From contig NZ_CP062698.1 in NCBI RefSeq assembly GCF_018389385.1, forward strand, positions 3,628,667 to 3,692,666: a DNA stretch of 64,000 nt, written 5' to 3'. Both the position numbers and the translations under genes were made by a program. Under the pieces are notes generated by a model. It was given only the letters and a program-made list of their open reading frames with translations, did no database searches and was not told where the DNA came from. Positions 58,058 through 64,000 of this stretch are shown here, piece after piece. The first letter of the stretch is position 1, and every line of letters starts with the position of its first letter. Source of the stretch: Anthocerotibacter panamensis C109 (GTDB lineage: Bacteria > Cyanobacteriota > Cyanobacteriia > Gloeobacterales > Anthocerotibacteraceae).

Positions 58058-58120
58058 GTTGGGTCGCAGGAAAATGCAGCACGAACAAGCCAAGTAGGTT
58101 GCGCAGCGCGGCTAGCTTCA

Positions 58121-58252
58121 AGGCACCATCGAGACAAGTGACAACCCCGCACCCAAGTAATCCCCTCTTGCCAAGCTAATCGCCGCACTGATCCCATCCG
58201 AAATTGGTGTTGGGTCTGCTATCCCTGCCAGATCTGCTGCTGCCTGCGCCAT
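58121..58252 (-). pseudogene. 44-codon fossil of the shared pre-toxin module
   Basis: The translation MAQAAADLAGIADPTPISDG continues ISAAISLARGDYLGAGLSLV to SMVP, nearly identical to the module in the toxin genes at 61453 and 63220. Both flanks diverge abruptly, so this is a broken piece: the upstream leader is missing and after SMVP the frame reads unrelated sequence. DNA identity to the 62.0-62.2 kb copy is high, which points to a recent duplication or recombination remnant. Confidence 0.85.
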
Positions 58253-58267
58253 GCTTAAGAGCATTGA

Positions 58268-58558
58268 CTAACTTTCTATAGCATTTTCATATTCTTTTAT
58301 ATATTCATCACGCAACTTTTCGAGAAATTCCTTTGCGTCGATAAAGCTTTCTACATTAAAATCAGAGTTGATGATATCAAACACTTCTATATTTCCTTTC
58401 ATTAGAGCGTCGATTCCGCTATCAATTGCTGTGAGCCATAGTTGATGATATGCTAAATTTTCTTCGGTGACTAGAACTAATTCTTGAACACCTTCTTTAA
58501 TAGATTGATAAGAGAAATATGAGCGCAAGATATCCCCTAAATCTTTCTGCCAGCCCAT
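58268..58558 (-). CDS. orphan candidate immunity protein
   Basis: A 96-residue acidic helical protein: QKDLGDILRSYFSYQSIKEG, HQLWLTAIDSGIDALMKGN, FIDAKEFLEKLRDEYIKEYE. Its size, acidity, AT-rich codons and position just after a toxin tail are as expected for an immunity protein, though I do not recognise the family. The toxin it once accompanied is now only a 25-residue tail (58625-58705). It may still protect against kin toxins. Confidence 0.65.
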   Translation of the reverse strand: MGWQKDLGDILRSYFSYQSIKEGVQELVLVTEENLAYHQLWLTAIDSGIDALMKGNIEVFDIINSDFNVESFIDAKEFLEKLRDEYIKEYENAIES

Positions 58559-58624: not shown

Positions 58625-58705
58625 TTAAGAATTATAGGGCACCTCGATAAATAGGTGAGGTTTCGGGAAATCAGCAATAGCAGGATTTTTTCTTTGGAAA
58701 TATCC
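58625..58705 (-). pseudogene. C-terminal tail of a toxin, cut by an insertion sequence
   Basis: The last 25 codons of a minus-strand reading frame read RKNPAIADFPKPHLFIEVPY and stop in NS. KPHxxxExP resembles the C-terminal strands of some small nuclease toxins with a PH[VL][HF]xE ending. The reading frame goes straight into the left inverted repeat of the IS4-type element, so the rest of the toxin was removed or displaced. The candidate immunity gene follows 66 bases downstream. Confidence 0.6.
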
Positions 58706-59868
58706 TGACGGGGTGACAAGGTCTGTGTAACCCTTGCTAGGAAAGGGGTCTAGACGATTTAGATAAAAAAAGATAGGCTGACCAGTGGCCCGCCTACCCA
58801 AAACAAAAAATGATGCCTCAATTCTACCAAACCTTTCTGCAATCGCAATTCTCTGCGCGCCAATTTTTGTTGTTGCACGCCCTGCTCCTGTTAGTGACCC
58901 AGTACCGGACTTTGCAAATTGAGAGATTAGCTCAACACCTGTGTCTGCCCGGACTAGCCGAAAGCCGTCGTCGCGCACTTCAGCGATTCTTATTACTTCC
59001 ACAATTGACGATGGATAAATTATGGTTTCCCTTAGTTCGTCAGCTTTTGGGTAACTTCTTTCCGACCAACCAAATCCTTTATCTGGCAATGGACAGGACA
59101 GATTGGCGTTTCAATAATCTTTTGGTCATTAGTTTAGTTTGGCAACAGCACGCCTTACCCCTGTACTTTATTTTTATGCCCACGCTGGGCAGTAGCTCTT
59201 TAGCACAGCAGCTAGAGGTTATCCAAGCGATTCAGCCTTTAATCAAAGGCTATCAGACTATACTTTTAGCTGACCGCGAGTTTTGCTCTGTCCAGCTAGG
59301 GAATTGGCTTAGGGAGCAGGGCTTAGGCTTCTGTTTGAGGCTGAGAAGTAACACCTATACCCAGAAAGATAAAGAGCAGGCCGTGGCCTTAAATAAATTA
59401 GGTATCAAACCTGGAACATCACTATTTTTGAACGGAGTTAAAGTAACCAAACAGAAAGGTTTTGGTGAGTTCAATATTGCTTGTAAATGGAAGAGGAAGT
59501 ATCGTAAAGAAGTTCCTGGAGAGGGTTGGTATATCTTGACGAGTCTTGATAACTTGAATTAAACAATTGAAGCTTATCAATGCCGTTGGGGTATCGAAGC
59601 CATGTTTAAAGACTGCAAAAGTGGAGGATACAATCTAGAAGATTGTCGAGCTTGCCAAACCCGACTCAGGAGTTTAATTATTTTAATAATGATTGCTTAC
59701 AGTAGTTGTGTGATTCAAGGGTTGGTTGTTAAAGATAGAGGATTACAAAAATATCTGTGTCGTCCAAAAGAGTTAGCTCAACAAGACCGTCGTAATAGTA
59801 CCTTCAAGGTAGGAATGCAACAACAGGTTTGGATAGGAAATCTACACCTTCTACTAGATATAGCAAAC

Positions 59869-60459
59869 TTACGTGAGTTGTAGCATTTTTCTGTATTCTC
59901 GTACTTTAGGAAAATCAAATATTTCATGCTTTAGCCCCCACTCAAATATAAACTTCACAGCCACAAATGATTTGCATAAGTGCCAACACTCTCGGATGAA
60001 CTTTTTGCCACATCTCCAAATATCTTCTGTTGGATTTTGCTCTGGGGCATAAGGAGCAAATTGTATACATTCTACTTTCCAATCCTTGCGCTCTAGACCT
60101 TTATTCTCCTCTGACAGAAAATTTCTAATATCCTCTGAATCGTGGTAGCTCGCTCCATCCCAAAACAATTTCAACTTAATGCCCGGATATTCTTTTTGTA
60201 AATACTTGATAAAGTGTATGGTTTCCTGTGAATCTCCCTTCTTAGAAGGGGTGATATGAAACCTACCACTCACACAATTTAAGGCTCCATAGTATGTCTG
60301 GCGCTCTCGGTCATTGACTATGGGAATTTGAGCCTTTTCACCAACTTTACCCCAAACATAACCCTTCATATCTCCCCAATTAAGATGACACTCATCCAAG
60401 GTAAGAACCACAGCCCGTCCAGCTTTCACCTCGGGTTCCCACGCTTTAAGCTTCTCCAT
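59869..60459 (-). CDS. IS630 transposase, C-terminal frame (DDE catalytic domain)
   Basis: A 196-residue DDE domain. The catalytic acids are in VVLTLDECHLNWGD (first Asp), KLFWDGASYHDSED (second Asp) and APYAPEQNPTEDIWRCGKK (Glu). The two frames overlap by 14 bases around AAAAAAAAG (60473-60465 on the minus strand), the type of slippery run used for -1 frameshifting in IS630 elements. It is probably functional if the shift occurs. Confidence 0.88.
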   Translation of the reverse strand: MEKLKAWEPEVKAGRAVVLTLDECHLNWGDMKGYVWGKVGEKAQIPIVNDRERQTYYGALNCVSGRFHITPSKKGDSQETIHFIKYLQKEYPGIKLKLFWDGASYHDSEDIRNFLSEENKGLERKDWKVECIQFAPYAPEQNPTEDIWRCGKKFIRECWHLCKSFVAVKFIFEWGLKHEIFDFPKVREYRKMLQLT

Positions 60460-60895
60460 AATTTCTTTTTTTTGAAGCCACTTGTTCTTCGTCTTTTTTA
60501 GGATTCACGCCTTGAGCCTTTTTCCAAGTAATACCCGCCTCATGCAATAAAGCAGAATAACTTTGCCGTGAGGAAAACTCAACTTGATAATGCTCATAGA
60601 TAAAGTCTGCTAACGCTTCGATATTCCAATGATTTCTTTGCTGCAACCAAGTAATTATTTCTTGCTTTTGTTCTGGGTTAAGACGACCAGGAAAACCGCG
60701 ATAGGCTAACTTTAATCCTTCCACCCCAGCAACTAGGAAACTAGATTTCCATTTACTGATAAATGCAGCACAAACATTGAGTAGGCTCATGATTTCTGCA
60801 TACGGATAGCCTTGAAGAGCCATTTTGACTGCCAAGGCTCTCTTGTACTCCCGTGGGTCGGGATTGCCATCTAAAAAAGCATTTAGTGCGTCCAT
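60446..60895 (-). CDS. IS630 transposase, N-terminal frame (helix-turn-helix)
   Basis: A 149-residue protein with a DNA-binding HTH: EYKRALAVKMALQGYPYAEI, CAAFISKWKSSFLVAGVEGL and the winged region NPEQKQEIITWLQQRNHWNI. It ends in KKRNYGEA just past a run of eight A, at which ribosomes could shift -1 into the catalytic frame. AGGGC precedes the ATG but no strong ribosome site. Confidence 0.88.
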   Translation of the reverse strand: MDALNAFLDGNPDPREYKRALAVKMALQGYPYAEIMSLLNVCAAFISKWKSSFLVAGVEGLKLAYRGFPGRLNPEQKQEIITWLQQRNHWNIEALADFIYEHYQVEFSSRQSYSALLHEAGITWKKAQGVNPKKDEEQVASKKRNYGEA

Positions 60896-61170: not shown

Positions 61171-61443
61171 CTATATAGCCTTGAGTTTATTGAATGCAAG
61201 GGTACATCTCAGCCTCAAGTCATCTTCACTCAGATCTTCCGTCTCGAGCAAATCCGGGTCACCACAGAAAGCATCTATATCACTAAAAAGATCATTAAGG
61301 ATTGAATATACCTCCACTGACCATTGGTTAGAATCTTCTTTGAAAAGATTTAGATAATTTTTCTCGAACTCATGGACATCAATTGCCCGATCAAGAAACA
61401 ACCCAATTAAATTAGAATATGTCTCCAAGGTCAGTGGACTCAT
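61171..61443 (-). CDS. colicin D-type immunity protein (candidate)
   Basis: A 90-residue acidic, helical protein: LETYSNLIGLFLDRAIDVHE, EFEKNYLNLFKEDSNQWSVE, IDAFCGDPDLLETEDLSEDD, LRLRCTLAFNKLKAI. The pattern of a first helix ending in xxFxxxxIxxxxFxxxY and a final DDxxLRxxxxxxLxKL resembles the colicin D immunity family. It lies 9 bases after the toxin stop and is translated from the same mRNA. It likely blocks the toxin tip directly. Confidence 0.75.
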   Translation of the reverse strand: MSPLTLETYSNLIGLFLDRAIDVHEFEKNYLNLFKEDSNQWSVEVYSILNDLFSDIDAFCGDPDLLETEDLSEDDLRLRCTLAFNKLKAI

Positions 61444-61452
61444 CGCTAACTC

Positions 61453-62517
61453 CTATAATGAGCCTTTTGTCAAAACGTAATTAAGCTGCTGAGAATTGAG
61501 CTTCCATCCACTCAAAAAGTTTCCAGAAAGATCTCGAATCACATTAAGTCCACTCTGGGGATTTACAAAATGCACAACATTCTGTCCTCGGTACATGCCA
61601 CTTATCATTTTAGTTGATGAATCCCTAATGTGCGTCTCAATAGCACTTCTCAGTAGTTGAGCATTTTCAGAATTAAAACTTCCTGTTATGCCAAAATCAA
61701 CAGCATGTTTAAACTTTTTTTGGAGTTGCTTGTCACCTATTGACAACTGCTCTGTTCGCCCGCGTCGATAGTGTTCCTGCCATGCTTCCCGCGTTGTAGC
61801 GCGCTCTCCAGGCTTGGGCGTGTAACCTCGTATGACTTGCCTGCCCTCAGTCCCCAATGCCTCCCCGACTTTAGCCGCCACCTCGGGCAGTGCGGTTCTC
61901 CGTGCGCCACCGGATAAGTGCTGAAGGCGTGTGGATACCTCTCGAATGCGCTCTACTAGCTTCCCAACCTGCTTGGCATTACGGGCAGCTTTGATAGATT
62001 TACCCACCGCATCGCCCAAATAAGGCACCATCGAGACAAGTGACAACCCCGCACCCAGGTAATTCCCTTTTGCCAAGCTAATCGCCGCACTGATCCCATC
62101 CGAGATAGGCGTAGGATCAGCAATCCCTGCCAGATCTGCTGCTGCCTGTGCCATCTCCAGCGCCATTTCCCGGTTGAGATGCAATAACTCTTTCTGAGCT
62201 AACTCCAGGGCTTCATCTGCCTTGGCTGCACCCTTGAGCGGGTTCAGTTGAACCAATTCCTGCCGTTGGACTTCCGCACTGACAGATGGAATGCGGATGG
62301 GGGATAGTCTACGCTGACCGGACGCGGGCTCACCGGGTACTTGCTGAAAAGGGTTATTGGTGAGGAAATCGTCAGGTAGCGGGGTGTACGTTGGCATGGG
62401 TGGTTCATCTTCCACGGGCTGCGCTTGAATCGGCGGCGGTTTAAACGTAGAAGGCTTGGGCGGCTGGAAGCTATGTTCAAAGGAGGATTTTGGCTTACGT
62501 GATTCGTAGATGGACAT
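61453..62517 (-). CDS. polymorphic toxin with colicin D-like tRNase tip
   Basis: A 354-residue toxin with three parts. Residues 1-80: proline-rich leader (ESRKPKSSFEHSFQPPKPST, FKPPPIQAQPVEDEPP). Residues about 95-190: pre-toxin module with DPTPISDGISAAISLAKGNY and GAGLSLVSMVPYLGDAVGK. Residues about 264-354: C-terminal tip, KKFKHAVDFGITGSFNSEN, IRDSSTKMISGMYRGQNVVH, SGLNVIRDLSGNFLSGWKL. This tip matches colicin D-type tRNA-Arg anticodon nucleases: the Lys-His of KFKHAVDFG (His 271) fits the catalytic position. No Sec signal is visible. AGGAGT precedes the ATG. Confidence 0.85.
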   Translation of the reverse strand: MSIYESRKPKSSFEHSFQPPKPSTFKPPPIQAQPVEDEPPMPTYTPLPDDFLTNNPFQQVPGEPASGQRRLSPIRIPSVSAEVQRQELVQLNPLKGAAKADEALELAQKELLHLNREMALEMAQAAADLAGIADPTPISDGISAAISLAKGNYLGAGLSLVSMVPYLGDAVGKSIKAARNAKQVGKLVERIREVSTRLQHLSGGARRTALPEVAAKVGEALGTEGRQVIRGYTPKPGERATTREAWQEHYRRGRTEQLSIGDKQLQKKFKHAVDFGITGSFNSENAQLLRSAIETHIRDSSTKMISGMYRGQNVVHFVNPQSGLNVIRDLSGNFLSGWKLNSQQLNYVLTKGSL

Positions 62518-62749: not shown

Positions 62750-63220
62750 TCATAGTAGATGGGCAAGCTTCTGTTCGAGAACGAGGAGCTTAGTATACTC
62801 ATCTTTATGAATTTTATCTTCAGGGAGAAGCTCTGACATTTTTTTGAAAAATGCTTTGCCCTCTTTAATCATCACACGAACAAACTCGCCAAAATTAATA
62901 ATAACTTTGTGATATTCTGATGACATGACTTCAAATTTAATCTGCTTCAAGTCGTTACTTGGCTGAAAACTTAGTTCAGTAACCTGTTCTGGTAAACAAG
63001 TGTTAAATTTCTTGCCCTCTGCAATTGTAAAAAGACCATTGATTAGATATCCCCATAACTGATCTATATAATCCCAATCTTTACAACTGAGCATAAGCTC
63101 TCCATCAAATTCAATTTCGATTGCTCCATCAATAAACTCAGGGTCTGGGAATTCTCCAAAGTATTTGGAAACAGGAATGAATGCATCATCAACCTTGAAG
63201 AAAGATCTTATTGTAAACAT
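62750..63220 (-). CDS. candidate immunity protein for the upstream toxin
   Basis: A 156-residue acidic protein: FTIRSFFKVDDAFIPVSKYF, DGELMLSCKDWDYIDQLWGY, NDLKQIKFEVMSSEYHKVII. Family not recognised. Its ATG overlaps the toxin stop by 1 base, which is the usual position and coupling for an immunity gene. The gap 62518-62749 before the next toxin start shows no other gene, only a 38-codon open stretch on the plus strand without a start. Confidence 0.65.
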   Translation of the reverse strand: MFTIRSFFKVDDAFIPVSKYFGEFPDPEFIDGAIEIEFDGELMLSCKDWDYIDQLWGYLINGLFTIAEGKKFNTCLPEQVTELSFQPSNDLKQIKFEVMSSEYHKVIINFGEFVRVMIKEGKAFFKKMSELLPEDKIHKDEYTKLLVLEQKLAHLL

Positions 63221-64000
63221 TACAGGCTCCTTCGATTCTGTGGAAAAAATTGCACCACTTTTCCACCTCTAATTCCTAGTTTGTACCTACAGCCGTTATA
63301 AAAACCGTCGATTTGCAAAAAATTGTTAACTCCATTTTGGATTAACTTTTCTCTATTCTGTTTGATAATATCTTCTATCGCCGCAAAGATCTCATCGATT
63401 GATATATCATCAACGAAAAACGTTTGCATATCTTTTGATGCAGTTCTGCGAAACTCTGGATGATGACGCTCCAAAATATGCTTTAATCTTTCTTTGGTAA
63501 GAACTAGCACATCAGAACCTACAGAGAAGGTATGACCTGAAATACTCTCTAAAGTATTGATAATTTTATGTTTTGGCATCATTTTTAAACTTTCACTTCC
63601 TATTTTCTGCAAAATCCCTTGTATAGTAGCTGACACGCGCTTTGCCTTCTCGATAGTATGTTCACTAGCGCTTGGATTAAACTGCTGAATCACTGTAGTT
63701 AGTTCCTCAATTCTCTGCTTTAAATGCTCAATCTTTTTCACATTGGATGCCGCTTTAAGAGGCTTGCCGAGCGCATCACCAATGAAAGGTACTATCGAAA
63801 CAAGTGACAATCCCGCTCCCAAATAATCCCCCTTAGCAAGACTAATCGCTGCACTAATGCTATCAGAGATGGGCGTTGGGTCCACTATACCAGCGAGATC
63901 CGCCGCCGCCTGTGCCATCTCCAGCGCCATTTCCCGGTTGAGATGGAATAACTCTTTCTGAGCTAACTCCAGCGCCTCATCTGCCTTGGCTGCGCCCTTG
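63220..64000 (-). CDS. polymorphic toxin with a different tip (5' part beyond the window)
   Basis: The frame is open from the window end (reading KGAAKADEALELAQKELFHL) and shares the pre-toxin module with the next toxin (DPTPISDSISAAISLAKGDY, GAGLSLVSIVPFIGDALGK). The tip is different: VLVLTKERLKHILERHHPEF, FFVDDISIDEIFAAIEDIIK, RYKLGIRGGKVVQFFPQNRR. ERH followed by an alpha-beta strand pattern and a K-V-Q-F-F-P end looks like a barnase/EndoU/RelE-type (BECR) RNase tip, low certainty. The ATG at 63930 is internal, so the true start lies outside. No colicin D motif is present. Confidence 0.8.
   Translation of the reverse strand, partial: KGAAKADEALELAQKELFHLNREMALEMAQAAADLAGIVDPTPISDSISAAISLAKGDYLGAGLSLVSIVPFIGDALGKPLKAASNVKKIEHLKQRIEELTTVIQQFNPSASEHTIEKAKRVSATIQGILQKIGSESLKMMPKHKIINTLESISGHTFSVGSDVLVLTKERLKHILERHHPEFRRTASKDMQTFFVDDISIDEIFAAIEDIIKQNREKLIQNGVNNFLQIDGFYNGCRYKLGIRGGKVVQFFPQNRRSL

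Follow-up and report, generated by a model that had tools for sequence, protein, structure and literature searches.

The window, i.e., the whole stretch of 64,000 nucleotides that was analysed, contained two adjacent genes at positions 61171-62517, both on the minus strand. The first (61453-62517 (-)) is an ORF of 354 aa that starts with ATG, has AGGAG upstream, and encodes a predicted cargo toxin with a colicin D tip, while the second (61171-61443 (-)) encodes a protein of 90 aa that was assigned to the colicin D-type immunity (ImmD) family based on Pfam and its position after the toxin. The original prediction had placed a colicin D-like tRNase and its immunity gene here in a cyanobacterium; both ORFs were present, and the three peptide motifs it quoted were all found exactly as given. 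A cyanobacterial host was also upheld, as some sequences in the genome set of the same phylum were exact matches to ones from named cyanobacteria. The toxin consists of a hydrophilic N-terminal leader (aa 1-90; 62248-62517 (-)), a linker or pretoxin segment (aa 91-255; 61753-62247 (-)), and the tRNase tip (aa 256-354; 61453-61752 (-)).

The tip had been predicted to be the catalytic domain of colicin D, and this was supported by profile, structure, and active-site analyses. Pfam Colicin_D (PF11429) matched aa 264-347 of the toxin (E=1.7e-21, 76.8 bits, cut-off 25), and a phmmer search with the toxin retrieved solved colicin D chains (1tfo/1v74, E ~6e-12; also 1tfk and 5znm). An AlphaFold2 model of the tip, based on an alignment with 27 relatives from public genomes, had a pLDDT of 91.8. 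In the Foldseek search with this model, colicin D chains (1tfo/1v74) ranked first (rmsd 1.7-1.8 Å, TM ~0.8), followed at a lower rank by CdiA tips (TM 0.54-0.58), so that the modelled fold, on which the original prediction had been staked, matched that of colicin D. The residues K607, K608, H611, D614, and S677 are essential in colicin D (PMC3482391), and all five have counterparts in the toxin (K267, K268, H271, D274, and S336, respectively). The equivalents of K268, K270, and H271 were invariant in the alignment of 28 tips, and the codon of H271, which corresponds to the catalytic His611 of colicin D, lies at 61705-61707 (-). His611 is described as the general base in colicin D (PMC9990079), whose cut in tRNA-Arg falls between nt 38 and 39. 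One CdiA tip of PF11429 cuts the tRNA acceptor stem instead (PMC9990079), and family membership thus leaves the cut site unfixed; for the tip in the window, a cut in the anticodon loop of tRNA-Arg is accordingly the most probable reading and not a result. Within the toxin ORF, only the tip matched colicin D by Pfam and phmmer, with no colicin receptor-binding or translocation domain found, and Pfam detected no Rhs or haemagglutinin repeats.

The second gene matched Pfam Colicin_immun (PF09204) with E=3e-15 and 57 bits (cut-off 22), such that both family matches lay well above the Pfam cut-offs. The top PDB match of a profile built on ImmD relatives was 1v74_B, the immunity protein of colicin D, and this match was weak but specific (E=0.005). 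An alternative identity as the bacilliredoxin AbxC was rejected because the NCBIfam score was far below its cut-off. The gap between the toxin stop codon and the immunity start codon was 9 nt, and the ribosome-binding-like sequence of the immunity gene overlapped the toxin stop codon, which suggests that the two genes are translationally coupled. Colicin_D and Colicin_immun each occurred only once in this genome of 4,187,797 bases. The family membership of the two proteins and their adjacency were upheld by the profile, structure, and active-site analyses, and we consider it almost certain that the tip is of the colicin D type and that the adjoining ORF encodes its ImmD-family immunity protein.

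The other 250 residues of the toxin, the delivery chassis, went unmentioned in the original prediction but are the more informative part of the protein. Residues 1-201 recurred at 33 places in the genome, and the first 50-90 residues (MSIYESRKPKSS...PPKxSTFKPPVVQ...) opened at least 20 ORFs. Among these were ORFs that combine the leader with eCIS_core (DUF4157), located at genome positions 723774-726074 (with a lipase domain), 3614420-3615460, and 1618384-1619622 (with Ntox16), and the second half of the leader was likewise combined with eCIS_core at 3189241-3191034. DUF4157 is a core domain of extracellular contractile injection systems (eCISs), with high specificity, and is often fused to toxins (PMC8213781). 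It was not found by Pfam in the colicin D toxin ORF itself, and leader ORFs without eCIS_core bore other tips, such as ADP-ribosyltransferase (ART) and RNase A. Since DUF4157 is not present in every eCIS-associated toxin (PMC11297309), eCIS_core serves as a marker but is not strictly required. The leader had a mean hydropathy of -1.00 over 35 aa, compared with -0.07 (sd 0.67) for 206 ORFs, and carried positive charge at its start and Tyr at position 4. Signal peptides of eCIS cargo are described as hydrophilic, with a positively charged start and an early aromatic residue (PMC11297309), and published loading signals are defined by such properties and not by a conserved sequence. A leader profile matched no other genome among the 386 of the phylum (with scoring of up to 13 candidates in each), and the chassis had no match elsewhere in the order; the role of the leader accordingly rests on one genome.

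Further leader proteins were observed. About six closely similar proteins (genome positions 297448, 1302752, 2210945, 1157520, 2875682, and 2469972) are ~335 aa long where complete, with a hydrophobic C-terminus in the complete copies and no Pfam match in the one that was scanned; these are possibly structural or adaptor cargo. Another ORF (genome 2811773-2813434) carried the leader, DUF6861, and a C-terminal region that appears PIN-like by eye (LVIDSNVVIALNKL), for which Pfam gave no match.

The gene is a mosaic. Compared in 60-nt steps, it was mostly 86-100% identical to the paralogue at genome position 1684528 up to nt 720 (71% in the first step), with ~90% DNA identity across the leader and linker up to that point, after which the identity fell to background. 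Other paralogues diverged near nt 240 or nt 540, giving three module borders among the paralogues. The G+C content was 54.5% in the leader and 57% in the linker, and 38% in both the tip and the immunity gene. From the collapse of identity at nt 720 and the drop in G+C, the tip and immunity gene look like a single imported, exchangeable cassette placed on a native chassis. Elsewhere in the genome, three tip types (one EndoU-like, one RNase A, and one unassigned) each appeared at two or more loci, with the immunity gene beside them being of a constant type for each. A tandem array at genome 2689293-2693308 contained intact and broken cargo tips with an immunity gene after each.

In the window, the pair forms part of a wider array that extends from ~58118 to beyond the window end. 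A second cargo toxin with the shared leader and linker lies in this array (63220-63999 (-)) and extends beyond the window (genome 3691886-3692950, 354 aa in full); its tip is labelled EndoU-like on the basis of a sub-threshold Pfam match only, and the fold model of this tip was poor (pLDDT 46). The adjoining ORF of 156 aa (62750-63220 (-)) is a candidate for its cognate immunity gene, and the same pairing was repeated at genome 3477583-3479117. The array also included an orphan immunity gene of 96 aa (58268-58558 (-)), homologous to the immunity genes behind RNase A-type tips at other genome loci, and a linker remnant with stop codons (58120-58252 (-); 92% DNA identity to 62022-62154), the trace of a broken third cargo gene. 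Two transposases were inserted into the array: one with two overlapping ORFs identified by domain search (HTH and DDE_3; 59869-60895 (-)), and one DDE_Tnp_1-like with a score slightly below the Pfam cut-off (58810-59562 (+)). An ORF of 154 aa without a family match (58625-59089 (-)) overlaps the opposite-strand transposase ORF and is either a gene or an antisense frame.

Genes for a contractile injection system (CIS) were present in the genome, including those for the sheath, tail tubes, CIS tube protein, spike, gp25 and J baseplate proteins, AAA ATPase, and Pvc16 terminator. These structural genes were dispersed over three places, the nearest of those found being ~1 Mb from the toxin locus, and other cargo-like genes adjoined the CIS ATPase and terminator genes. 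The family was represented by just one other sampled genome, which had an AAA ATPase gene with an eCIS_core gene next to it. An ORF of 1874 aa with a GHL10 domain (genome 997084-1002708) was located beside the CIS tube-protein gene. The sheath protein of type VI secretion systems (T6SSs), VipB, had no match in the genome, and T6SS delivery was rejected on this ground.

The original prediction described colicin D tips as best known from enterobacteria and CdiA proteins; they are, however, not confined to these, being carried by Rhs-type and other proteins in many phyla and occurring as solitary pairs in other cyanobacteria. A search of genome contigs with the whole toxin returned no match, while a search with the tip alignment returned 36 loci. 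Plasmid matches came exclusively from enterobacteria, most of them being colicin D of E. coli, with identities below 60%. Within the phylum, Colicin_D was found in 6 of 386 genomes, including that of the window. The other five comprised three with solitary ORFs (102-121 aa) followed directly by ImmD, one with a degraded copy and an intact ImmD, and one with a protein of 493 aa, whose genome matched a Sericytochromatia record. The window tip was closest to the tips of Rhs-type proteins (56-59% identity), compared with ~44% for the solitary cyanobacterial tips; the tip tree was poorly resolved and placed it nearest the Rhs-type tips without support. Solitary colicin D ORFs of ~102-121 aa with ImmD and no carrier domain were observed at L089, L090, L092, L093, L097, L103 (cyanobacteria), L104, L105, and L108 of the retrieved loci, and it is possible that they are toxin-antitoxin modules; L107 had a truncated colicin D copy with an intact ImmD. 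Haloferax elongans (L098:3619-6586) encoded a DUF4157-type protein followed by a short, related ORF that bore a colicin D tip, together with ImmD, which is an independent archaeal link between colicin D and a CIS.

Taken as a whole, the locus probably encodes an antibacterial CIS/eCIS effector and its immunity protein, and the narrower claim that the colicin D toxin is CIS cargo is very likely to be correct. The leader would load the toxin into or onto the CIS particle, which would then inject it into a susceptible bacterium. The linker would join the leader to the tip, and the tip, judging from its family, fold, and residues, would cleave tRNA via H271, most likely in the anticodon loop of tRNA-Arg, and thereby stop translation. 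ImmD, as its family and position suggest, would bind the tip and protect the producer and its kin. Many cargo genes in the genome carry other tips, with the tip-immunity cassette apparently exchangeable, and the recurrence of the leader, in part on eCIS_core proteins, points to an interchangeable set of antibacterial warheads, several of which have their antidote encoded next to them. This explanation is supported by the family matches, fold, and essential residues of the pair, the CIS genes in the genome and the missing VipB match, the leader shared with eCIS_core proteins and its signal-like properties, the mosaic DNA, the constancy of tip-immunity types, the Haloferax elongans case, and the haloarchaeal toxins of PMC11566945; against it stand the lack of eCIS_core in the toxin, the ~1 Mb distance from the CIS genes, the absence of the leader from the other sampled genomes, the definition of loading signals by properties only, and cleavage at different tRNA positions by some PF11429 toxins. 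A more ambitious version is a modular antibacterial CIS arsenal resembling the CdiA and Rhs toxins: loading would need no more than a short leader lacking DUF4157, and the many dispersed copies of one chassis would receive tip-immunity cassettes by swapping. This version seems to us evenly balanced between true and false.

The same tRNase-immunity pair could instead be delivered by another route, such as a T6SS, two-partner CDI, Rhs proteins, or Sec, with the leader being a generic N-terminus of polymorphic toxins. Colicin D tips are carried elsewhere by Rhs-type and other proteins, and the toxin has no eCIS_core; nevertheless, the same leader is borne by eCIS_core proteins, the hydrophilic start of the toxin is unlike a Sec signal, the ORF has no match to Rhs or haemagglutinin repeats, and the genome has none to VipB, so we judge this unlikely. 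An effector aimed at eukaryotes, either grazers or a plant partner, would be in keeping with the several characterised eCISs that act on animals (PMC8213781) and with the ART and lipase tips also present in the genome, but a dedicated colicin D immunity gene and the paired immunity genes of the sibling tips fit antibacterial use, which leaves a eukaryotic target similarly improbable.

The remaining readings concern whether the pair is exported or even functional. A pair acting within its producer, as an internal toxin-antitoxin or phage-defence system, is what the solitary cyanobacterial ORFs of 102-121 aa directly followed by ImmD may represent; the tip in the window, however, is fused to a 250 aa chassis common to eCIS_core proteins and is nearer to Rhs-type tips than to the solitary ones, and a PADLOC search for anti-phage defence gave no match, making this the least likely of the alternatives. 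The broken linker copy, the orphan immunity gene, and the two transposase insertions nearby would fit a store of decaying cassettes that now has little function, yet neither the colicin D toxin gene nor the ImmD gene is broken, ribosome-binding sequences are present, and every essential residue is conserved, so that we find such decay very unlikely here. An antibacterial CIS effector with its immunity protein thus remains the preferred explanation.

Colicin D and ImmD of E. coli plasmids (PF11429 and PF09204) resemble the pair in the window in their catalytic fold, active site, immunity family, and toxin-then-immunity order. The window toxin differs from colicin D in being ~39-45% identical to it in the tip, in its chromosomal location, in a leader common to injection-system cargo, and in having no match to receptor-binding or translocation domains. 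Polymorphic toxins of the Tox-Colicin D type with ImmD and PVC (eCIS) delivery were catalogued in 2012 by Zhang et al., with cyanobacteria not listed (PMC3482391); these share the colicin D tip and ImmD with the window, whereas the leader here is used without a PVC-metallopeptidase (eCIS_core) in the same protein. The eCIS-associated DUF4157 toxins (PMC8213781 and PMC11297309) are comparable in the presence of CIS genes and DUF4157 proteins in the genome, the hydrophilic leader with an early aromatic residue, and the C-terminal toxin domains; the window toxin has an immunity gene, whereas PMC8213781 could identify none for the majority of the antibacterial eCIS toxins that it tested. The release of DUF4157 toxins depends on the CIS in a haloarchaeon, where the toxins have immunity partners encoded downstream and some of these effectors are encoded far from the CIS cluster (PMC11566945); that case is archaeal. 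Colicin is absent from the main texts of PMC8213781, PMC11297309, and PMC11566945. The thylakoid-anchored CIS of Anabaena is a cyanobacterial CIS with DUF4157 effectors, as here, but its structural genes form one cluster accompanied by two effector genes (PMC8894136), whereas those in the present genome are dispersed over three places. The combination of a colicin D tip, ImmD, and PVC/eCIS delivery is thus already known from other phyla; what is new is the cyanobacterial case, the leader used with and without DUF4157, and the multi-copy chassis with swapped tip-immunity cassettes.

A well-understood tRNase and an equally well-understood immunity protein are combined here with a putative CIS cargo chassis, which opens loading, delivery, target range, and self-protection to established assays. 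The nature of the loading signal could be examined through the many copies of the leader, some of which are accompanied by DUF4157 and some not. If the host lacks thylakoids, as is probable, one may also ask where a CIS would be anchored in such a cyanobacterium. Should the loading of the toxin through its leader prove true, the wider arsenal of this genome would be worth study.
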